Part shown: piece by piece, positions 36,568 to 48,607 of the stretch
Layout of the letters: every line of letters begins with the position of its first letter
Position numbering within the stretch: the first letter of the stretch is position 1
From: Campylobacter sp. CN_NE2
Lineage (GTDB): Bacteria > Campylobacterota > Campylobacteria > Campylobacterales > Campylobacteraceae
Direction: 5' to 3'
Length of the DNA: 64,000 bases
Assembly: GCF_027797465.1 (NCBI RefSeq)
Contig: NZ_CP115608.1
Coordinates: forward strand, 744,001-808,000
The notes under the pieces: generated by a model
What the model was told of the DNA's origin: nothing
Database searches by the model: none
The model's input: the letters and a program-made list of their open reading frames with translations, nothing else
Translations under genes and position numbers: made by a program

Positions 36568-38544
36568 TTACAAATTTTTTATCTTTGCGATTTCATCACG
36601 CAATGCGGCGGCTTTTTCGAATTCCAGCGCAGCAGCGGCTTCTAGCATTTGTTTGCGAAGCTCTTTTATGATTTTGGCGCGTTCAGCGGCTGGCATTTTT
36701 TCTAACTTTTTCGCTTTGGTTAAAATTTCTGCGTTATCATCAATTTTTAGGCTTTCTTCTATGTTTCTGGTTGCCGAGTGTGGCGTTATACCGTGAGTTT
36801 TGTTATACTCATCTTGAAATTTGCGTCTAGCGGTGGTTATGTCAATCGCTTCTTGCATTGAGCGAGTGATTTTTTTGCAAAACATTACAACCTGCCCGTT
36901 TAAATTCCTAGCAGCCCGTCCCATTGTCTGAATTAGGCTAGTTTGCGAACGCAAAAAGCCTTCTTTATCGGCATCAAAAATGGCAATCAAACTAACTTCG
37001 GGCAAATCTAGCCCTTCGCGCAATAAATTTATACCGATTAACATATCAAATTCGCCTGATCTTAGCCCACGAATCAGCTCATTTCGCTCTATTGCGTCGA
37101 TGTCTGAGTGCATATATTTGACCTTGATACCGAGTTCAAGGTAGTATTTGCTAAGCTCTTCTGCCATTTTTTTTGTTAGCACGGTTACTAAAATTCGCTC
37201 GTTTCTAGCTATGACCTTTTTTGCCATGTCGTGCAGGATTTCGACTTGATTGTCGCTATCTTTTATGAGAATTTCGGGGTCTAAAAGCCCTGTCGGACGC
37301 AAAATTTGCTCCACAACCTTTCTGCCACTTAAATTCACTTCGTATTCATTTGGCGTGGCTGAAACGAATAAAAATTTGCCCTTTTTGCTAATAAATTCAT
37401 CAAACATCAAAGGGCGGTTATCAAGTGCGGAAGGCAAGCGAAAGCCGTATTCTACGAGCGTTTCTTTGCGACTTCGATCGCCTGCGAACATACCTCGAAA
37501 CTGCGGCAAAGAAACATGGCTTTCATCGACGATGACTAGGTAGTCTTGTCCCTTGCTTTCGTAGTAATCAAACAGCGAATACGGCGTTTCTCCGGCATTT
37601 TGCCCTGTTAAATATCTCGCATAATTTTCGATCCCTTTGCAAATGCCAGTTGCACTCATCATTTCAAGGTCAAATTCCACGCGCTGTTTTAGGCGTTGGG
37701 CTTCGACGAGTTTATTTTCATTTTCAAAAAATTTTAATCTCTCACCAAGCTCTTCTTCAATGCCTTTAATCGCCGTTTTTAGGCGATTTTCGCCGACGAT
37801 AAACTGACTTGTGGGATAAAGGATAAATTTAGCCACACTTTTTGTTTTTTTATTTTCCAAAACATCGAAATGATACATCGCTTCAAGTTCGTCGCCAAAA
37901 AATTCTAGCCTTATGGCTTCGTCGTTAAAATACGCCGGATAAATATCAATCGTATCGCCGTTAGCGCGGAAATCGCCACGATCAAAAAAATTATCATTGC
38001 GTTTGTAACCCATATCGACGAGTTTGCGAAGTAAAAATTTGCTAGAAAAACTTTGACCAAGTTCTAAATGAAGCACCATGCCTTTGTATTCAGCAGGGTC
38101 GCCCAAGCCGTAGTTTGCCGAAACCGAAGCTATCGTAATGACATCGTCAAAACTAAGCAAACTAGCCGTCGCTGAGAGGCGAAGGCGCTCTAACTCGTCA
38201 TTTATGGAGCTATCTTTTTCGATAAAAAGGTCTTGGCGCGGAATGTAGGCTTCTGGCTGATAATAATCATAATAGCTGATAAAATACTCGACATGATTTT
38301 GCGGAAAAAAGCCCTTAAATTCGCTATAAAGTTGCGCTGCAAGGGATTTGTTGTGTGTCATTATGAGAGTTGGAATTTGCAACTTTGCGATGATATTTGC
38401 CATGGTAAAGGTTTTTCCACTTCCAGTAACACCGAGTAGCGTTTGATATTTTTCGCCGTTTTTGATTCCTTGCACGATTTTTTCTATCGCGTTTTTTTGA
38501 TCTGGGCTTGGACTAAATTTGCTTTTGATTTCAAACTTTTTCAA
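36568..38544 (-). CDS. uvrB: excinuclease ABC subunit B
   Basis: DNA-damage verification helicase of nucleotide excision repair. The 658 residues contain Walker [10 protein letters not shown], the beta-hairpin region [24 protein letters not shown], the helicase motifs VSATPNEYE and TMGRAARN and a C-terminal UVR motif ([14 protein letters not shown]) for UvrC. Slightly shorter than E. coli UvrB (673). It converges with pgpA and diverges from the small-gene trio at 38611, the same order as in C. jejuni. Confidence 0.97.
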
Positions 38545-39583: not shown

Positions 39584-41014
39584 TTATCTAATTATCATTT
39601 TGGCTCTTGTTTTTTTATAAAATAGCGAATTTAGACGGTTTAACTGCTCTTCGCTTAGCGGGGTGGAATTTAAAAATTTGCTTTCTTTGCTTGGTGTAAA
39701 AAATTCGCTAATACCACCATAATTTTTGCCTAGTTGCAAAGGATTTTCGTGGCAAAGTTCGCAGTTTTTAGCCTTTTTGCCTATGGTGTGTGGGCTAAAT
39801 GGAGCAAAAATCTCAAATTTTTTATTCTTTAACGGCGAAATTTGCTTGCCGTCTTTTGAAAAATGAATTAAATTATACTGAAAAATCGGTCTTGAAATTG
39901 CGATTTTACCGCTATTTAAATCATTTAGCAAAAGTAAATTTTCAAACCTACTTAGCGAAAAAACAGCGTGATATTTTTTTGTATTTTTATCAAATTCGAT
40001 TAAATTTTGCCATTTTTTCTCGTCTTTACTCTCATCTTTTATCAAATTTAGCTCATAAAAACTACCTTGCCAGCTCGCATGACAAGCGACGCAAGAAAGC
40101 TTGTCATGGTAATTTGCGTGAGCAAAATTTGGTTTTATTTCGTGGCAACTTTCGCAAGATTTTAGCTCAAAATCACTCTGTTTTTTTGCAAAAAATTCGT
40201 CAAATTTATCGCTAGAATTTTGCTTGTGTGAAGTGTGGCAAGAAATGCACGAAAAGCCCAAATTCGCGTGAATATCAGGGCTTAACTGATGATAAAAATC
40301 TCCGTGAAATTTACTAGGAAAATTTCCGTTAATACCCAATGGTGTGCGAAAATCTTTGTGAGCATCAATTGGAAATTGCCCCGTAAAATCAGCCCCCACA
40401 AAGAATTTATTGTGGCAACTTTGACAAACCCCGTTATCAGCCTTTTTTAGCTCGTGCGTTTTGGAGTGCAGGTTTGTCCCGGCAAACTCGTCTTTACCTT
40501 GATACTTTCCATTGTCTGCATAATGCGTATGACACGCCATGCAGCCTAGCCCCCTAAATGCGCCGTTTTGACCCTGAACGCTCGTATGGCAATTTAGACA
40601 TTTTTGAGAGATTATTTCAATGGCAAGTTTTTGCGTATCGTCTAAATTTTCTTTTTGTAAATTTGCAAATTCTAAAATGCTAGCATTTTTATCAATATCA
40701 AATGCCTTTAAAATCGTGTTTATTTCGTTTTTGTGCGTAAAGTGATTTGAGTTTTTGTAGGATTTTATATGGCTTTCGTGGCACTCGCCACAAAATTCGC
40801 TCATATTTTCATTTGAAGCCGGGTGAGCGATGATTTTAGCGTGATCTGTGCTTAAAATATCGGCTTTTTTTAGATGGCAAGTTTGGCATGAAAAATCGTG
40901 GTTTTTTGCGTCAAATTTTTCGATTTTTTCATGGCACTCGGTGCAATTTGCGTTTAAAAAAACGCTAAAAATCACGCAAAAAAGAGCAAATTTGAATAAA
41001 TTTAATCCATACAT
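39584..41014 (-). CDS. periplasmic decaheme cytochrome c
   Basis: 476 residues with a signal peptide (LFKFALFCVIFSVFLNA) and ten CxxCH heme sites (CTECH, CQTCH, CGECH, CLNCH, CMACH, CQSCH, CISCH, CESCH, CVACH, CELCH). Nine lie in the first 65 percent and one near the C-terminus, after a heme-free stretch of about 130 residues. Not clearly of the NrfA, HAO, MtrA or OTR types. It is the last gene of the operon, overlapping the 12-heme gene by 13 bases. I infer an electron carrier between the quinol/NrfD side and another acceptor or the molybdoenzyme. Confidence 0.85.
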   Translation of the reverse strand: MYGLNLFKFALFCVIFSVFLNANCTECHEKIEKFDAKNHDFSCQTCHLKKADILSTDHAKIIAHPASNENMSEFCGECHESHIKSYKNSNHFTHKNEINTILKAFDIDKNASILEFANLQKENLDDTQKLAIEIISQKCLNCHTSVQGQNGAFRGLGCMACHTHYADNGKYQGKDEFAGTNLHSKTHELKKADNGVCQSCHNKFFVGADFTGQFPIDAHKDFRTPLGINGNFPSKFHGDFYHQLSPDIHANLGFSCISCHTSHKQNSSDKFDEFFAKKQSDFELKSCESCHEIKPNFAHANYHDKLSCVACHASWQGSFYELNLIKDESKDEKKWQNLIEFDKNTKKYHAVFSLSRFENLLLLNDLNSGKIAISRPIFQYNLIHFSKDGKQISPLKNKKFEIFAPFSPHTIGKKAKNCELCHENPLQLGKNYGGISEFFTPSKESKFLNSTPLSEEQLNRLNSLFYKKTRAKMIIR

Positions 41015-42840
41015 TTTGTTAGTCCTTGATTAAATTTATCTTTTGAAAGCTCAAAATTTTCATAAATTTTATCTTCCCATTTGTCGTGGCAAATGACGCA
41101 TTTGTAGGCATTTACGATTTTTTGGATTTGCGTTTTATTTAAAGCTTTATCATTTTTTGAGGCGTGTTGATTTTGTGTTCCGTTTGCTTCCACAAACGCA
41201 TCAATCGAATACGAAAAGCCAAATTTAGTTGCATTTGCTTCAAAATACGGGCTAAATTTCAAATTTTCGTTTTCAAATTCCAAATTTCCACGCCCAAAAC
41301 CAAGTGCAGTAGAGCTAAAATGGCACTCCACGCAGGTTTTTGCAGCCCCCGTCGTATGCGGATCCCAACTAGCCATACTCATAGAGTAAAATTTGCTGAC
41401 ATTTTTATCATACACTGTGCCGATGACTTGACAGCCGGGTGCAAAAGGTGCGATTTTGCCGTCATTTCGCTCTCCAAGTGCAGGGCTTTCAAAACGCAAA
41501 AAACTTCGCATTTCTTGCCACTCGCCGCTTTGAAATTCCTTTTTGTGCCAGTTATATTGCGTGGAATCCTTAAAATACTGCTCGTGGCAACCATAACAGC
41601 TTGGCATTGTGCGTGAATGACAGGCTTGGCAGGTTAGATTTTCGTGGATTTCGCTTTTGTGATAGGGTAAATTTGATAGCGGCACAATTTCATAGCTTTT
41701 GCCGTCCTTTTTGCGATAAATGAGCGTTTTATCGCCGTTTTTTGCGACATTGTAAAGCGGAGAGTTTTTTTTGCGAGTGTAAGCGATTTCATCAAAAATT
41801 TGCAAATTTGGATTTAAATTTGCTAGTTTTTTTGCCGTTTCGTTCGGGGTGTCAAATTTAGGCTCATGGCAATCAACACAACTTATATCAACAGCTTCTC
41901 GCATATTTTTGTGTGCCTTTAAATCGCCCATAACGCCGTAGCTTGTGTGGCAATCAACGCAATCAAGTCCTGCTTTTTTGTGGTGAATATCAGCTTCAAG
42001 CTCGTAAAAATGGCGTCCGTCAGCGAGTGTGTGAGCGCGGTCAAACGGGGCTTTTACGCCTTCGCTTTCAAATTTGCCAAAATACGAAAGCCCGATACGG
42101 GCTGAGCGATTATGACATTGAGTGCAGTTTGAGCTTGGAATTTGTGTTGTAAATTTAGTGTGTGAAGCTTTTAAATTTGGCGAATTTTCTAAATTTGCAG
42201 TGTTTGAGTTTGACAGGTTTTCTAAATTTACTGAGTTTTCTAAATTTGCCAAATTTACGCCATGACAAGCCACGCAACCACCGCCTTTGGCTAAATCTTT
42301 GTTCTCAAAAACTTCTCTTTTTTGATCGATATGACAAGCATTACACGCCCTTTGAAAATGGTTATTAGCTAGGGCTTTTAGCTCAGCCTTGCTTAAATCA
42401 TGGCTTGTAGATTTTTCTACCCAATCTTCGATTAAATTCGCTCGAATTGGGCTTTGCGACTGCATCGGAGAGATCGAAACTCGTGCTATTTGATTTGCAT
42501 GGCAAGAGTTACATTTTTTTTTCGCATTTACTAGGCTTGCGGGATTTTTTATCAAATTTAAATGAGCGATTTTTTCGTTATTTGAATTTACGCCATCATG
42601 GCAATCTATACAGCTTAAATCATCATGCGACGGGCTTGGGGAAGTGAAATTTTCGTGGCAAGTTAGACATAAATTTGATAAATTTGGCAAATTTGAGTTA
42701 TGATTTTTAACGCTAGAATTTGCCAAATTTATCAAATTTGAAGCGTTTTGTGAAGCAAATTTGAAATCAAAAAATTCTAAGCCCGTCCAAACGCACAGGC
42801 TTAGAATCAAAATCGCTAAAATCCCCTTAGCAACCTTCAA
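41002..42840 (-). CDS. dodecaheme cytochrome c
   Basis: 612 residues with an N-terminal signal or anchor helix (AKGILAILILSLCVWTGLEFF) and twelve CxxCH sites (CLTCH, CIDCH, CNSCH, CNACH, CVACH, CTQCH, CVDCH twice, CQACH, CYGCH, CVECH, CVICH). A low-complexity stretch (residues about 200-225, ANLENSVNLENLSNSN) separates hemes 5 and 6 and comes from three copies of TTTTCTAAATTT on the plus strand (42185, 42218, 42236). No catalytic CxxCK or known family was recognised. It overlaps genes on both sides, in the order small periplasmic protein, 12-heme, 10-heme. Confidence 0.85.
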   Translation of the reverse strand: MKVAKGILAILILSLCVWTGLEFFDFKFASQNASNLINLANSSVKNHNSNLPNLSNLCLTCHENFTSPSPSHDDLSCIDCHDGVNSNNEKIAHLNLIKNPASLVNAKKKCNSCHANQIARVSISPMQSQSPIRANLIEDWVEKSTSHDLSKAELKALANNHFQRACNACHIDQKREVFENKDLAKGGGCVACHGVNLANLENSVNLENLSNSNTANLENSPNLKASHTKFTTQIPSSNCTQCHNRSARIGLSYFGKFESEGVKAPFDRAHTLADGRHFYELEADIHHKKAGLDCVDCHTSYGVMGDLKAHKNMREAVDISCVDCHEPKFDTPNETAKKLANLNPNLQIFDEIAYTRKKNSPLYNVAKNGDKTLIYRKKDGKSYEIVPLSNLPYHKSEIHENLTCQACHSRTMPSCYGCHEQYFKDSTQYNWHKKEFQSGEWQEMRSFLRFESPALGERNDGKIAPFAPGCQVIGTVYDKNVSKFYSMSMASWDPHTTGAAKTCVECHFSSTALGFGRGNLEFENENLKFSPYFEANATKFGFSYSIDAFVEANGTQNQHASKNDKALNKTQIQKIVNAYKCVICHDKWEDKIYENFELSKDKFNQGLTKCMD

Positions 42841-43159
42841 ATTGCGCTCCGCCCGTCGGTTTTGGAGCGCTTACTTCGCTTTCATCGGCTTTGGCGCCAA
42901 ATTCGTCTATCATACCTTCATCGGCTAGGCGTTGAATAACATCATCATAGCTTTCCCATGCTTTTTTGTTGTAAGCGTCTGCTTGGATTGCCTTTTTTGC
43001 GTATGCCCTAGCAAGTGTGAGATTGTTTTTTGCCACAGCTTCGCGTGATAAATTTACAAAATGTTCCGCCTGCGCTTTTGAAGTATTGTAGCTTTGCAAA
43101 TTTTCCGCAAAACCAAAACTGCAAAGTAAAACCATGCTTAAAATTATCTTTTTCATCAT
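42827..43159 (-). CDS. small periplasmic TPR-like protein of the respiratory operon
   Basis: 110 residues with a signal peptide (KKIILSMVLLCSFGFA) and one or two TPR-like helix pairs (AEHFVNLSREAVAKNNLTLARAYAKKAIQADAYNKKAWESYDDVI). It ends GGAQFEGC with a terminal Cys. Two ATGs in tandem (43157-43159 and the next codon) both suit the GGAGAAA ribosome site. It overlaps the 12-heme gene by 14 bases. I infer an assembly or docking factor for the cytochromes. Confidence 0.7.
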   Translation of the reverse strand: MMKKIILSMVLLCSFGFAENLQSYNTSKAQAEHFVNLSREAVAKNNLTLARAYAKKAIQADAYNKKAWESYDDVIQRLADEGMIDEFGAKADESEVSAPKPTGGAQFEGC

Positions 43160-43165
43160 TTTCTC

Positions 43166-43762
43166 CTATGAATTTATCGTCACATAATAAACATTTGGTT
43201 CAAGCCCGTCGCTCTCTTTTAAGCGAGTTATACTTGTCGCCTTAGCCAAAATTTGCGAAACATCGCTATTTGGGTCATTTAAATCGCCAAAATTTCGCGA
43301 TTTGCCCACGCAGGTGGTTACACAAGCCGGAAGCAAACCTTTATCCACTCTTGGGGCGCAAAATGTGCATTTATCGACGCTTTGTTTGTGTTCGTCGTAA
43401 TATCTGGCGTTGTAAGGACAGGCTACCATACACGCCTTACAGCCTATGCAAAGGGACGGATCGACGATGACGATGCCGTCTTTTTCACGCTTGAAACTAG
43501 CTTCTGTCGGGCAAACAGCCACGCATGGGGAATTTTCGCAGTGGTTACAAAGAACAGGCAAGAAATTTAAAATCGGATTTCCTGCATTATCTTCGTTTTC
43601 GACTTCAAAAACCCTTGTGCGATACGCTTCTTTGAAAAGCGGCACTTCCCACTCGGTTTTACACGCTACATAACACGCATCGCACCCGATACAGCGATCG
43701 CCGATAATCACCATAGCTAGGTTTTTTTCTTTTTTGTGATTTTTATTTATTAGTGAGTTCAT
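43166..43762 (-). CDS. psrB: four-cluster ferredoxin subunit, PsrB/PhsB type
   Basis: Electron-transfer subunit linking the molybdoenzyme with the membrane subunit. From ATG 43762 (AAAGGGCGTAAG site, one base after the previous stop) it has 198 residues; an in-frame ATG 24 bases earlier would lie inside the catalytic-subunit gene. Cys groups CIGCDACYVACK, CNHCENSPCVAVCP, CIGCKACMVACP and CTFCAPRVDKG...CVTTC make four [4Fe-4S] clusters. No signal peptide: it would be exported with the Tat-dependent catalytic subunit. Confidence 0.9.
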   Translation of the reverse strand: MNSLINKNHKKEKNLAMVIIGDRCIGCDACYVACKTEWEVPLFKEAYRTRVFEVENEDNAGNPILNFLPVLCNHCENSPCVAVCPTEASFKREKDGIVIVDPSLCIGCKACMVACPYNARYYDEHKQSVDKCTFCAPRVDKGLLPACVTTCVGKSRNFGDLNDPNSDVSQILAKATSITRLKESDGLEPNVYYVTINS

Positions 43763-43763
43763 C

Positions 43764-46022
43764 TTACGCCCTTTCAAGTCTAACAAAGCCGTTGTTTAAG
43801 CCGCTACAACCACTTACCGGATCAATGTCATTACTACAAAAATAAACATCGCTAATGCCCTTATCAAAGCCGCTCTTCCACTCTTTGCTAACATGCCCAA
43901 AGCCGTGGTGGATAAAGACATTTCCCTCAGTTATTCGCTTTGTGATTTTTATATTTTGTGGTTTTGATTTGAGCCCTGTTTTAGCATTTATCATTATGAC
44001 TTTATCGCCAGTTTTTAAACCTAAATTTGCCGCGTCATTAGGATTTATCCAAATCGGGCTATCATCTTCAAGTTCGAGTAAGAGCTTGTTATTTTGGCTT
44101 CTTGCATGTGAGTGTGCTGGACCTCTACCAAAAAGCAGTCTAAGCTCGCCTTCTTTTGGCTGTGGCGGTGCTACCCAAGTAGGTAGCGGTGCGCAGACAT
44201 CACCGTATTCTTCATACATTTTTTCCATATCTGGGTTGTATAGATGAATTTTGCCCGTGCTAGTAGGGAAGCTTAGTGGCTTACCGCTATTTTGCGGATA
44301 CGCATCGGCTAAATAATCGCACAAAATGCCGTCTTTTTCAAATTTTTCTTTATCTTCGGGGCTGAGTGAATTTACGAAATTATTTATCGCGTCGCTTGGC
44401 GAAATGGTGAAATACTCGTCCATATCAAAGCGTTTGCAAATCCCACGCACTATGTCAAAAACATGCTTAGTATCGTGCAGTGGCTTGATTGCCGCCTTTC
44501 TTACAGCCACAAACGGCACATCGTATTTTTGGATATATGGCCCGTCGTCTTTTTCTAAATATGTGCTTTCAGGCAAAACTATATCACAATACGCGCAAAA
44601 ATCGTTCATCTGCGTATCGATTGCCATTAAAAAATCTAGCTTTTCGATAGATTTCATAACGCCGTTTGCTTCGACTGCCGTGTGTCCTAGCGGATTTGTA
44701 TCGTAGGTCAGCCACGCTTTTATCGGATATGGCTGTTCGCTTAAAGTCGCGCGATAAATTTCGCCACTTAGCCCTAAATTTGCAGGGTTAAACGGCCACC
44801 TAACCCCAACGCCGTCAGCTCTTGGCTCATTTACGGCTGGTGCTTCATCATCTTTTGGGAGCTTAGCTAAATTTATACTTTGATTTACCCAAGTTCCGCC
44901 TTTTATGCCGTAATTTCCCATAATCGCATTTAAAATCGCAATCGCTCTTGCTGTTTGTGTGTCGTTTGCGTATCTTGAAAATCTACGCGGTGCGATAGCT
45001 AGGACATGTGGGGCAAATTTCGCAAATTCCCACGCTACTTCTTCTATCTCTTCGGCTTTTATACCGCAAATTTCTTCCGCCCATTTTGGGGTGTATTGTT
45101 TGACATGACGAGCAAGTTTATCAAAGCCGTAGCAGTATTTATTGATAAATTCCATATTTGCTAGATTATCTCTAATTATGACATGGATTAGCGCTAGTGC
45201 TAGTGCCATATCGCACCCCGGTTTTATGCGAAGCCATTTGTGCGCTCTAATCGCACTTTCGCTCTGGCGTGGATCTACATAGACGAGTTTTGCGCCGTTT
45301 GCTAGGCCTTCCATAAAATCTCTTGCTTCTCTAACCTGAATCGCTCCTGCCATATTTCTGCCAAATAAAATCATATATTTGGTGTTTGCCATATCGTAGT
45401 TTTCATGTCCGCCGATACCGCCACCGCCAAATGTCAAAGACCAGCCAATCGCTCTACTGCCACGACACTCTGAAAATGAAGCATAGCTTACATTTGGAGT
45501 GCCAAGTAAGGTGGCAAATTTGTGAAAATAGCTCGAACAGCTTCCATGAGCAAAGGCTGCAATGCTTTTTGCGCCGTATTTGTCGATGATTTTTTCTAAA
45601 TTTTCATGCACGAAGTCAAACGCTTCGTCCCAGCTGACTTTTTTCCATTTGCCTTCGCCCCGTTTGCCAACTCTAATCATCGGGTATTTTAAGCGATCTG
45701 GATCGTAAGTAGAATAAACCCCCGCATTTCCCTTAGCGCAAATCGTGCCGTAATTGTATGGATTTAGCTTGTTTCCTTCGATTTTGTGAATTTTGCCGTC
45801 CCTTGTGAAAACATTTACGCCACAATTCCAAAAGCACATTTCGCAGTAATTTGGAGTTTTTACGCCCTCGTCGTATTCTAATAAATTTGAAAGCTCGGGC
45901 GAATTTTTGTGCGTTTTTGCCATTAGTGGATTTGGAAGCCCTGTGATACCTGCCGTGCTGGCAACTGCGACACTAGAAGCCATTTTTAGGAAATTTCGTC
46001 TTGTTATTTTAAGCTCTCTCAT
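43764..46022 (-). CDS. psrA: molybdopterin oxidoreductase catalytic subunit, PsrA/PhsA-like
   Basis: 752 residues with a Tat signal (ITRRNFLKMASSVAVASTAG), an Fe-S motif CEMCFWNCGVNVF...CAKGN and a Cys as probable Mo ligand (SECRGSR, about 195), as in polysulfide/thiosulfate reductases and unlike the Ser (DMSO) or SeCys (formate) enzymes. The C-terminal molybdopterin domain (HHGFGHVSKEWKSG) is complete. Length matches PsrA/PhsA (about 760). Substrate likely polysulfide, thiosulfate or tetrathionate; arsenate is less likely given length. It lies after the NrfD gene, an unusual C-A-B order. Confidence 0.88.
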   Translation of the reverse strand: MRELKITRRNFLKMASSVAVASTAGITGLPNPLMAKTHKNSPELSNLLEYDEGVKTPNYCEMCFWNCGVNVFTRDGKIHKIEGNKLNPYNYGTICAKGNAGVYSTYDPDRLKYPMIRVGKRGEGKWKKVSWDEAFDFVHENLEKIIDKYGAKSIAAFAHGSCSSYFHKFATLLGTPNVSYASFSECRGSRAIGWSLTFGGGGIGGHENYDMANTKYMILFGRNMAGAIQVREARDFMEGLANGAKLVYVDPRQSESAIRAHKWLRIKPGCDMALALALIHVIIRDNLANMEFINKYCYGFDKLARHVKQYTPKWAEEICGIKAEEIEEVAWEFAKFAPHVLAIAPRRFSRYANDTQTARAIAILNAIMGNYGIKGGTWVNQSINLAKLPKDDEAPAVNEPRADGVGVRWPFNPANLGLSGEIYRATLSEQPYPIKAWLTYDTNPLGHTAVEANGVMKSIEKLDFLMAIDTQMNDFCAYCDIVLPESTYLEKDDGPYIQKYDVPFVAVRKAAIKPLHDTKHVFDIVRGICKRFDMDEYFTISPSDAINNFVNSLSPEDKEKFEKDGILCDYLADAYPQNSGKPLSFPTSTGKIHLYNPDMEKMYEEYGDVCAPLPTWVAPPQPKEGELRLLFGRGPAHSHARSQNNKLLLELEDDSPIWINPNDAANLGLKTGDKVIMINAKTGLKSKPQNIKITKRITEGNVFIHHGFGHVSKEWKSGFDKGISDVYFCSNDIDPVSGCSGLNNGFVRLERA

Positions 46023-47149
46023 TTTTCACTCTCCAAATTTAAAAATGTTTTTCCAAGTGCGTAAATAAAGAGCATTACGCCAATGCCTGAGATAAAAATA
46101 GTGATTTCTGCAAGGCTCGGGTAGTATGAGCCAAACTCTATCTTGCCCAAAATCTCGCTCTCAACCCTCACAAGCTGACCACCCACAATGCCGTCAAACC
46201 TAGCAAAAAATACGCCGATAATGGCTAAAATTCCAGCCAAAAATGAAATTTTTAAATTTTGAAATTTAGACAAAATAAGCAAAATCATCGGAAGCAAAAT
46301 TCCAACTAAAATTTCGAAAAAATAGAAATTAAACGACAAATTTCCGTTTGTAAAAACTTCAAAATTTTTGGCTAGATAGCTTCCGCTTCCATACGATGAA
46401 ATCACAATGCCCCAAAAATTTATAAATAAAACAGCCAAAAGTATCAAAAACATAAAAATATTCAAATTTCGCAAAATTCGCTCATTTAGGGCTTTTTTGC
46501 TTAAATTTACAAAGGCAAAAATCACGCTTATGCCGCAAATCAAAGCTCCAAAAATAAATGAAATAGTAAAGCTTGGCGTATGCCAGATTGGTCTAGCTGA
46601 ATTTACGGCAAAGACCATTGATAGTGTGCTAAAAGCGACTATTCCCATTATAAATGCGACAATTCCTGCTAGGAAACTTGATTTTTCGTCGCCTTTTAGC
46701 ATTAAAATTAGCTCGATTATTAAAAGCGGAGTTTCGATAAGATAAAAAGTGCTCATCCACCAAATCGGGCTTTCTACCGCGAAATTAAAGTAATATCGCA
46801 CGAAGCGCAAAACTTGCAGTTTAAAAGGGCTTCCAAGCTCCCAAAAAATCAGCCAAAATGCCGCTAAAAGCGCGCTAATAGCCAAAAGCTGTAAATGGCG
46901 TGAAATTTTAGAAAATGCGTGAAATCCAAAGAGATGATCAGCCGTAGCGATAGTGGCAACTCCTACGCTAATGCCCACAAAAAAGGCATATCCCATAAGC
47001 AAAAGCCCAAACGGAATCTCCCTGCTTACACCATAACTAGCTTCTTGTCCGTTGAAAAATACCAATGCAATGCCGATTAGTCCGATACAGCAAAGTGCCA
47101 GTGCAACAAAAAGAAGCCTAAAATCCTTGTTTTTAGCGATTGTTGTCAT
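46019..47149 (-). CDS. psrC: NrfD/PsrC-type quinol-oxidising membrane subunit
   Basis: 376 residues with nine to ten hydrophobic helices, for example FLLFVALALCCIGLIGIALVFF and GILLPMILLILSKF. Typical NrfD segments are GLLLMGYAFFVGISVGVATIATAD and YLIETPLLIIELILML. NrfD subunits anchor the enzyme and draw electrons from menaquinol. The start overlaps the TorD gene by four bases, the stop overlaps psrA. Placement before the catalytic gene differs from the Wolinella psrABC order. Confidence 0.85.
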   Translation of the reverse strand: MTTIAKNKDFRLLFVALALCCIGLIGIALVFFNGQEASYGVSREIPFGLLLMGYAFFVGISVGVATIATADHLFGFHAFSKISRHLQLLAISALLAAFWLIFWELGSPFKLQVLRFVRYYFNFAVESPIWWMSTFYLIETPLLIIELILMLKGDEKSSFLAGIVAFIMGIVAFSTLSMVFAVNSARPIWHTPSFTISFIFGALICGISVIFAFVNLSKKALNERILRNLNIFMFLILLAVLFINFWGIVISSYGSGSYLAKNFEVFTNGNLSFNFYFFEILVGILLPMILLILSKFQNLKISFLAGILAIIGVFFARFDGIVGGQLVRVESEILGKIEFGSYYPSLAEITIFISGIGVMLFIYALGKTFLNLESEK

Positions 47150-47691
47150 TGTTTGTCCTTTAAATTCGCAATCAAAAACTCAAAAAAACACAAAATAAAC
47201 TCAAAATGAACTAAATTTGGTAAATTTGCCAAATTTGCTTTTAAATCCCCAATCCACGATAAAAATTTGCAAAATTCATTAAATTTTTGAGTTTCTCCGT
47301 TTTCAACTAAAATAGCACAAAATGCAATTAAATTTGATATATGATCGCAGTTTTTTTCTACTTTGTAGCCACAAATTTCATAAAATTTGCAAATTTCATC
47401 GTGGTTTTTGCCAAACATTTTTTTATCTAGCCAAATTCCAGCCATTAATGAAGTGCCAAATTTAGCTGAGTTTAGGTCGAAAAAATTTATATAATCACTA
47501 ATAATCTCATCTAAATTTGGCACTTTTAAATCTTTAAATTTGACATTTGAATTTTCGTCAAAAAACTCGGCAAATTCGCCGTTTGCAAATTCACCGAGTT
47601 CAAAGTATCTCTCGCACCAATTCTGCTCCGGAAAAGCAAACAAATCAGCACACAAATCTAGGCAATCAATCAGAGCCCTATTATTTTTCAT
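47146..47691 (-). CDS. TorD/DmsD-like molybdoenzyme chaperone
   Basis: 181 residues, mainly helical, with the family motif region EKNCDHISNLIAFCAIL (TorD family ExxDHI) and a preceding FGTSLMAGIWLDKK. Such chaperones bind the Tat signal of the molybdoenzyme until the cofactor is inserted. Located directly before psrC-psrA, overlapping psrC by four bases and the rhodanese gene by 11. The family is highly variable, so identity rests on motif plus context. Confidence 0.75.
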   Translation of the reverse strand: MKNNRALIDCLDLCADLFAFPEQNWCERYFELGEFANGEFAEFFDENSNVKFKDLKVPNLDEIISDYINFFDLNSAKFGTSLMAGIWLDKKMFGKNHDEICKFYEICGYKVEKNCDHISNLIAFCAILVENGETQKFNEFCKFLSWIGDLKANLANLPNLVHFEFILCFFEFLIANLKDKQ

Positions 47692-48607
47692 CGCCTTTTA
47701 AAACTTTTCTTTTTGAAAGTTTAGAGTATTCGACCATACTACCTTCATAGTTTTTGACTTTGTCATTTCCCATGATATATTTTGTCGCAAACCAACCACC
47801 GCTTGCATGCCAACCAGTGTTGCAATACCAAATTTGCGGTGCCATCGGATCAACTCCTGCGCCTTTATAAACTTCACCAAGCGCATCTTTATCAGTATTT
47901 ATATAGAAAATTCCGTCATTTTCTTTTGCAATTTTACCAATGAAAATTTGTCCATCAACGCCTTCTAAATGTCCGCCTTTATCGGCTTTTGGGTGAGCTT
48001 TTTCGCCGTTATAAAATGCGTCATTTCTAGCATCGATTAACGCCATATTATTTGTAACAACAGCTTCGTCTATTTGATAAACAGAAGCAACTATATCTGT
48101 GTTAAATTTAGTAATTTTAAAGTCGCTTTTTTCAGGCGCACTCGCTTCTGTACTAAGTTCGCCACCTGCTTTTTTCCAAGCATCAATACCACCATTTAAT
48201 ATAGCTGTATTTGTAAATCCATAGTATTCAGATACAAATACTGCCAAAGTCGAAAGCGTATAATCAGGAGCCGCTTTTGCGTCGTTGTAGAAAACTACCG
48301 CGCTAGTATCTTTGATACCGCTTTTTTGAAATAATCTCTCAACTGTTGTCGGAGAAGCGATAAATCCCGGCATTTCTCCTCTTGCCTCTCTAAAATCAGC
48401 TTCTTTCCATGCAATCGCACCTTTAATATGACCTGCTGCATATCCTTCGCCCTCTTGAAGATCGATCAAAACCAAATCTTTATCGGCTAAATTTGCTTTT
48501 AACCACTCGACATCAACAACCTTGTTTTGTGGTAAATCCAAAGCAAATAAACAAGAAGTTAAAGCAACCACTGCGCTTAATTTTGTAGCAAATTTTGCAA
48601 CACTCAT
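47681..48607 (-). CDS. periplasmic double-rhodanese sulfurtransferase
   Basis: 308 residues, signal peptide (ATKLSAVVALTSCLFA), two rhodanese domains (about 30-140 and 165-300). The second has the active Cys (YCNTGWHASGGWFATKYIMG); the first has Asp-Ala where the Cys would be (YNDAKAAPDYTL), so it is inactive. In Wolinella the periplasmic Sud sulfurtransferase hands polysulfide sulfur to Psr. By analogy this protein could load the molybdoenzyme, though Sud itself is a shorter single-domain protein. First gene of the operon, with AAAGGAG before ATG. Confidence 0.88.
   Translation of the reverse strand: MSVAKFATKLSAVVALTSCLFALDLPQNKVVDVEWLKANLADKDLVLIDLQEGEGYAAGHIKGAIAWKEADFREARGEMPGFIASPTTVERLFQKSGIKDTSAVVFYNDAKAAPDYTLSTLAVFVSEYYGFTNTAILNGGIDAWKKAGGELSTEASAPEKSDFKITKFNTDIVASVYQIDEAVVTNNMALIDARNDAFYNGEKAHPKADKGGHLEGVDGQIFIGKIAKENDGIFYINTDKDALGEVYKGAGVDPMAPQIWYCNTGWHASGGWFATKYIMGNDKVKNYEGSMVEYSKLSKRKVLKGDEK

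Follow-up and report, generated by a model that had tools for sequence, protein, structure and literature searches.

In Campylobacter sp. CN_NE2, one conserved operon brings together two unsettled matters: the activation and transport of zero-valent sulfur in the periplasm of Campylobacterota, and the function of the ext cytochromes. We analyzed this operon within a window of 64,000 nucleotides (the whole stretch of DNA under study) from a host genome of 1.54 Mb that forms one contig and encodes four PF00384 molybdoenzymes. An earlier note on this DNA had described two large multiheme cytochromes behind a molybdoenzyme of the PsrA/PhsA kind, and had suggested another electron route (from the cytochromes to the molybdoenzyme, or out of the cell) or a substrate other than polysulfide.

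The operon and its PsrABC-type enzyme

As the earlier note had described, eight genes overlap or abut in one direction. The ORFs occupy 39584-48607 on the minus strand, and neighbours overlap by 4-23 bases or are separated by a 6-base gap:

47681..48607, minus strand: two-domain secreted rhodanese (sulfurtransferase); PF00581, E=2e-20, in two stretches
47146..47691, minus strand: TorD/NarJ-type maturation chaperone; PF02613, E=5e-7
46019..47149, minus strand: PsrC/NrfD-type quinone-linked membrane subunit; PF03916, E=2e-21; about 10 hydrophobic segments
43764..46022, minus strand: PsrA-type periplasmic molybdoenzyme; TAT-like RRNFLK start, one 4Fe-4S cluster, Cys Mo ligand, molybdopterin domains
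43166..43786, minus strand: PsrB-type ferredoxin; 16 cluster cysteines for four 4Fe-4S clusters; TtrB/DsrO/NrfC-type matches
42827..43159, minus strand: small secreted protein with a C-terminal Gly-Cys (FEGC) that is kept in relatives; no Pfam or NCBIfam family
41002..42840, minus strand: 12-heme cytochrome, ExtM-like; 12 CXXCH motifs, ExtM model NF040943, hydrophobic N-terminus
39584..41014, minus strand: 10-heme cytochrome, ExtN-like; 10 CXXCH motifs, ExtN model E=8e-28

Because the gene order is conserved in relatives, we do not regard the grouping of the eight genes as due to chance. The motif count over both cytochromes (10 + 12 CXXCH) agrees with the 22 c-type hemes predicted earlier, and Pfam finds multiheme c domains. 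The true start of psrB is likely the ATG near 43762. Promoter and terminator scans gave hits no more frequent than in shuffles. A strong terminator-like hairpin (42773-42808, minus strand; 14 pairs followed by a T-rich stretch) lies within the start of the 12-heme gene and might act as an attenuator of the cytochrome genes.

The assignments of the TorD chaperone, the NrfD subunit, the Cys-ligated molybdoenzyme and the four-cluster ferredoxin were each borne out by Pfam domains, cluster cysteines or the alignment with Thermus thermophilus Psr (2vpw). The rhodanese does have two domains, as the description of a double rhodanese had implied, but its catalytic cysteine (Cys262, in YCNTG) is confined to the C-terminal domain, where it is invariant in seven relatives; the protein also matches ExtH weakly (E=1e-15). 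PsrA has the sequence features of a Cys-ligated Mo-bisPGD subunit with a 4Fe-4S cluster and a TAT signal, and it is accompanied by the four-cluster ferredoxin and the NrfD-type quinone subunit of a CISM reductase. This NrfD protein is the only one of the host genome (a single hit in a search of that genome).

Thermus Psr is the best solved relative of PsrA (E=8e-138), and the Mo-ligand cysteine is aligned between the two. Against the PhsA equivalog model, PsrA scored 506 bits and did not reach the cut-off of 694; on this score it is a family relative of PhsA and not PhsA itself. Our comparison set comprised 397 genomes drawn from the Campylobacterota, a genus sample and a scan of named genomes and MAGs. 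Six of the 397 phylum genomes encode a PsrA with at least 55% identity, and all six also have ExtM; the remaining PsrA/PhsA proteins among the matches listed were at most about 39% identical. In a maximum-likelihood tree (quick search, no bootstrap, built without Wolinella PsrA and SrrA, and with the window protein represented by its 98% identical homologue from genome G011), the ExtMN-linked PsrA proteins formed one clade (SH-aLRT 99), which Thermus Psr and a WOR-3 sequence join (SH-aLRT 97). Salmonella-type PhsA and the other Campylobacterota enzymes fall outside this grouping. In this tree, PsrA is thus a discrete clade that is sister to Thermus Psr; the branch to other PsrA proteins is long, which limits what can be said about the substrate from this kinship.

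The multiheme cytochromes and their genomic contexts

The 12-heme protein matched the ExtM model NF040943 over residues 55-605 (E=2e-72; 244 bits against a cut-off of 800), and an ExtM match was present in all 36 aligned relatives. The 10-heme protein matched both ExtM (N-terminal part) and ExtN, the latter match recurring in 28 of 28 aligned relatives. Because the scores lie far under the cut-offs, we consider the cytochromes relatives of ExtM and ExtN and not members of the curated equivalogs; on these profile matches, both are distant relatives of the Geobacter proteins. The earlier note had held its reading open to challenge should the cytochromes belong to a known family with an unrelated role; the kin found, ExtM and ExtN, are tied to chalcogen reduction and do not count against it in this way. 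The predicted structure of the 12-heme protein (pLDDT 74.5, pTM 0.73) gave zero Foldseek matches in the PDB at E<=0.001, and the 10-heme model was poor (pLDDT 63) and was left out of the structure search. We found neither solved structures related to the ExtM profile nor plasmid relatives of ExtM. Conserved free histidines number 10 for the 12 hemes of the ExtM-like proteins, and strongly conserved ones number six for the 8 core hemes of the ExtN-like proteins, a hint, which proves nothing, at hemes without a His ligand.

Other cytochromes came up in the course of these searches. The 12-heme proteins of about 790 residues in L010, L017, L044 and L045 were treated as a separate family and excluded; those at L017:6826-9195, L044:3890-6268 and L045:7788-10130, distant kin of ExtM, stand alone in their loci, and the type is widespread in other Campylobacterota. 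An octaheme cytochrome (L019:6195-8108), whose genome also encodes a tetraheme NrfH-like partner at another place, is possibly of the Hao/Otr type. The NCBIfam model NF040968 (ExtO, described as an iron-sulfur subunit) has 416 positions, matches 10-heme cytochromes and looks mislabelled.

The earlier note had considered a route out of the cell, in which the operon would be a conduit that reduces solid sulfur or metals outside. ExtMN relatives do occur in the Geobacter ext group of putative conduits, and Pfam gives weak MtrC-type domain matches. However, unlike Geobacter ext, neither the operon nor its annotated relatives contain a porin or outer-membrane lipoprotein gene, and no lipobox was seen on either cytochrome, the hydrophobic N-terminus of the 12-heme protein being a signal or a possible membrane anchor. 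An extracellular conduit is, in our judgement, highly improbable.

Near relatives of the 12-heme gene were present in the genus sample in G009, G010, G011 and G007, and the 12-heme profile gave strong matches in eight of the 397 phylum genomes (the host, G000, and G011, G007, G333, G073, G116, G310 and G107). The operon of G011 has the same eight genes as the window. In G333, ten genes follow the order rhodanese, torD, psrC, psrA, psrB, small gene, Rieske, cytochrome b, ExtM, ExtN; G116 has this order from torD onward, at a contig end, and G073 has it with an inserted methyltransferase-like gene. G007 likewise encodes a Rieske protein and an ExtP-matching cytochrome b, both placed after the small gene and before the 12-heme gene. 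This pair, found in G007, G333, G116 and G073, is absent from the window operon and the G009-G011 loci as far as the contigs reach, several relatives' contigs ending inside the operon, and the simplest reading is that the window lineage has lost it; the host genome encodes one Rieske protein elsewhere. Judged by gene order, the operon is a conserved system across relatives and not a one-off.

At fourfold sites, the window and G011 differ least in psrC, psrA, psrB and the small gene (0.12-0.19), more in the rhodanese gene and torD (about 0.4) and most in the genes for the cytochromes (0.60-0.67); the comparison genes uvrB and pheT gave 0.21 and 0.61. Recombination has probably swapped the catalytic core but not the cytochromes. 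When 43166-47149 of the window was compared with L015, psrC-psrA-psrB-small gene was nearly identical to this other species and the flanking cytochromes about half identical, again likely through recombination. The uvrB gene (36568-38544) also looks exchanged.

These data bear on the possibility that the enzyme is an ordinary Psr/Phs reductase and the cytochromes accessory electron buffers with no special role. PsrABC with TorD is complete by itself, but every genome of the phylum sample that has this PsrA clade also has the 12-heme cytochrome, the heme proteins have been retained despite fast divergence, and Campylobacterota, Desulfobacterota and WOR-3 all have related ExtM loci. We consider this simple reading very unlikely; the view that the operon is not of the classical three-subunit type held, the cytochromes being a conserved part of it and relatives adding the Rieske/cytochrome b pair.

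The scan of named genomes gave 44 ExtM loci, mostly from MAGs of Campylobacterota, of which many seem to be of vent origin; it also gave loci from Sulfurospirillum sp. UBA6810, Desulfurellales/Desulfurellaceae, Desulfobacterota and WOR-3. One locus (L071) is from a MAG of the window's species, from roe deer omasum. Ten or so loci show a second context without Psr, composed of two short YeeE/YedE-type genes (PF04143), the small protein, in most cases a rhodanese, and ExtM and ExtN. Both contexts lie side by side in L047, and in L079 and L088 the ExtMN pair comes after Rieske and cytochrome b genes. In L076, genes of the PsrA and PsrB type come after ExtM and ExtN and an NrfD gene is missing, which suggests direct electron exchange. 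Because nearly all Campylobacterota loci share the rhodanese, the Gly-Cys-tail protein and ExtMN, and Psr and YeeE/YedE alternate, we read the core as a putative unit of sulfur handling and periplasmic electron wire. The only Sulf_transp (YedE-type) gene of the host genome (G000:C1:725141-725494) lies about 10 kb from a molybdopterin gene with an in-frame TGA (G000:C1:734895-736328), a probable selenocysteine formate dehydrogenase.

The kinship of the cytochromes raises the alternative of a respiratory selenite (or tellurite) reductase, with PsrABC like Srr of Bacillus selenitireducens, ExtMN like Geobacter ext, and the rhodanese and small protein handling selenium. Both cytochromes match the ExtM and ExtN models best. 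In Geobacter, the ext cluster includes a rhodanese and a 12-heme/10-heme pair, and deletion of extI lowers selenite and tellurite reduction (PMC5877670). The Srr operon consists of A, B and C subunits, a chaperone and rhodaneses (PMC12481199), and the in-frame TGA of the host molybdopterin gene suggests selenocysteine. However, all members score far under the ExtM cut-off, the Geobacter gene tested encodes the porin ExtI, which has no counterpart here, the relatives' neighbours are sulfur genes (YeeE/YedE and the sox genes described below), and many relatives are MAGs apparently from sulfur-rich vents. Selenite respiration is thus an unlikely role for the operon.

A small protein with a Gly-Cys tail

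The small protein had been called TPR-like in the earlier note. It is small and secreted, but neither Pfam nor NCBIfam gave it a family at E<=0.001 (other profile matches were weak and at chance level), and what stands out is its FEGC C-terminus. Complete relatives end in F/Y/L-E-G-C or FVGC in the Psr context and in D-L/M-G-C in the YeeE context, and an M-G-C-I tail occurs in five genomes without detected ExtM. Four columns are invariant in a 24-row alignment, and two of these are the Gly-Cys, which follows a linker of variable length rich in Ala, Pro, Lys and acids. Within the window, the small protein alone has such an ending (1 of 68 ORFs). The 65 loci compared, some of them duplicate records, contain 854 complete ORFs; 46 of these have GC at the end, or GC and one further residue, and 44 of the 46 belong to the family or are the similar small protein of L079, the others being one transporter and one unrelated protein. 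The transporter (L079:6610-7476, Desulfobacteraceae) is of the YeeE/YedE type with an extra hydrophobic segment and ends in VIIGDDEGC; the small protein beside it ends in VIMGDDEGC. GC-ending ORFs in L076, L086 and L089 were judged chance frames, and the small-protein gene of L087, from a draft MAG, has an in-frame stop. A profile search detected the family at E<1e-13 in 13 of the 397 genomes, including all eight with ExtM.

In G016 and G310, relatives of the small protein lie near soxB-, soxA- and soxZ-like genes, and G016 also has a soxY-like gene whose product ends in GGCGG (assignments made by eye from sequence, with no profile). SoxY carries sulfur on a C-terminal cysteine arm (PMC11237559). 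The small protein has the same kind of arm as SoxY/DsrC-type carriers, with a conserved cysteine in an invariant Gly-Cys behind a variable linker, and Pfam, NCBIfam and profile searches gave no match to SoxY, DsrC or TusE. The invariant Gly-Cys after a variable linker, the sox-adjacent relatives and the same tail on a transporter led us to propose that it is a sulfur carrier, and the analogy suggests a swinging cysteine arm. The C-terminal cysteine could alternatively serve metal binding, a disulfide or attachment. The rhodanese, the YeeE/YedE neighbours and the sox neighbours of small-protein relatives point to sulfane sulfur or thiosulfate.

The sox neighbours also fit a system that works in the other direction, oxidizing or disproportionating carrier-bound sulfane sulfur and passing electrons via PsrAB and/or ExtMN to quinone or periplasmic acceptors. 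A Rieske/cytochrome b pair and multiheme cytochromes are an unusual addition for a reductase, a bidirectional Psr has been proposed in Sulfurospirillum (PMC4794192), and rhodanese, YedE and Psr genes have been noted in sulfur-disproportionating Campylobacterota (PMC9948710). Yet the window lineage looks like an animal-gut anaerobe, there are no sox genes within the 64-kb window, quinol oxidation is the more natural role for the relatives' Rieske/cytochrome b pair, and PsrA groups with a polysulfide reductase. We judge an oxidative role improbable.

A candidate sulfane-sulfur respiration system and its known counterparts

Our leading reading, which we hold tentatively, is that the operon encodes a system for the respiration of periplasmic sulfane sulfur (polysulfide or similar). 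PsrA, PsrB and PsrC are clear CISM reductase subunits with a rhodanese in the same operon, and relatives of the small protein adjoin PF04143 sulfur transporters; polysulfide or sulfane sulfur is the likeliest substrate because of the rhodanese, the PsrA kinship and the sulfur neighbours. In the proposed mechanism, the rhodanese would take up sulfane sulfur and load the cysteine arm of the small protein, which would hand the sulfur to PsrA for release as sulfide. Electrons would reach PsrA from menaquinol through PsrC and PsrB, Psr being the quinone-linked reductase attached to the sulfur-handling core. The ExtM/ExtN-like cytochromes would act as a periplasmic wire next to PsrAB and the carrier, probably quinol-fed in relatives via the Rieske/cytochrome b pair. 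As the window operon has no such pair of its own, its wire must exchange electrons with PsrAB, a Rieske complex elsewhere or another partner; we suggest PsrBC, or the Rieske protein from elsewhere in the genome, as its source.

Several points count against sulfane-sulfur respiration. ExtMN also occurs without Psr, so its primary role need not be to serve PsrA, a quinol-linked Psr has no need of 22 extra hemes, and the Geobacter kinship suggests selenite or tellurite. The interpretation of the earlier note is, as a whole, partly supported. A wider proposal, possible but more doubtful, is that the Gly-Cys-tail proteins represent a new family of sulfur carriers in the periplasm, and that rhodanese, carrier and ExtM/ExtN-like pair form a core sulfur redox machine beyond Campylobacter, coupled by lineage to a quinone-linked Psr or to YeeE/YedE transporters. 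Should the tail of the small protein carry sulfur, the operon would give a gut-type Campylobacter an uncharacterised bacterial way of breathing sulfur compounds, and the candidate carrier offers a single testable cysteine. The operon is also a warning against taking a Psr/Phs or ExtM label at face value, since genes so named can be part of another respiratory machine.

We found no description of a Psr operon with ExtMN, or of the Gly-Cys-tail family, among the open-licence papers searched. With PsrABC, PhsABC and SrrABC (CISM, DMSO reductase family) the operon shares the Cys-ligated Mo subunit, the four-cluster ferredoxin and the NrfD subunit, and with the Srr operon also TorD and a rhodanese (PMC12481199); it adds the two multiheme cytochromes and the Gly-Cys-tail protein, and its PsrA clade is set apart from the other sampled Campylobacterota enzymes by identity and by its Thermus sister. 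Geobacter extHIJKLMNOPQS, linked to selenite and tellurite through the extI mutant (PMC5877670), shares the 12-heme/10-heme pair and the rhodanese, and relatives of the operon also have the Rieske protein and ExtP-like cytochrome b, a gene set found in L079 and L088 as well. The operon differs in having PsrABC, in having no ExtI porin and no other ext cytochrome annotated, and in the low equivalog scores of its cytochromes. The MOLY and YTD clusters of sulfur disproportionators are similar in having MolyA/B with a TorD-like MolyC and a YedE-type transporter, but MOLY is described as MolyABC without cytochromes (PMC12998232), and TusA/DsrE genes were not seen here. Mtr/Pcc conduits combine a porin with an outer-membrane cytochrome, a combination absent from the operon and its annotated relatives. 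The likeness of the small protein to SoxY and DsrC/TusE is one of design only (a cysteine in a flexible C-terminal arm, and a sulfur gene neighbourhood); it differs in its putative helical TPR-like body, in having no SoxZ partner and in sequence. Qrc and alternative complex III also combine a multiheme cytochrome with Mo-type, Fe-S and NrfD subunits, but they contain fewer hemes and their Mo-type subunit is catalytically inactive, whereas the Mo-ligand cysteine is retained here.
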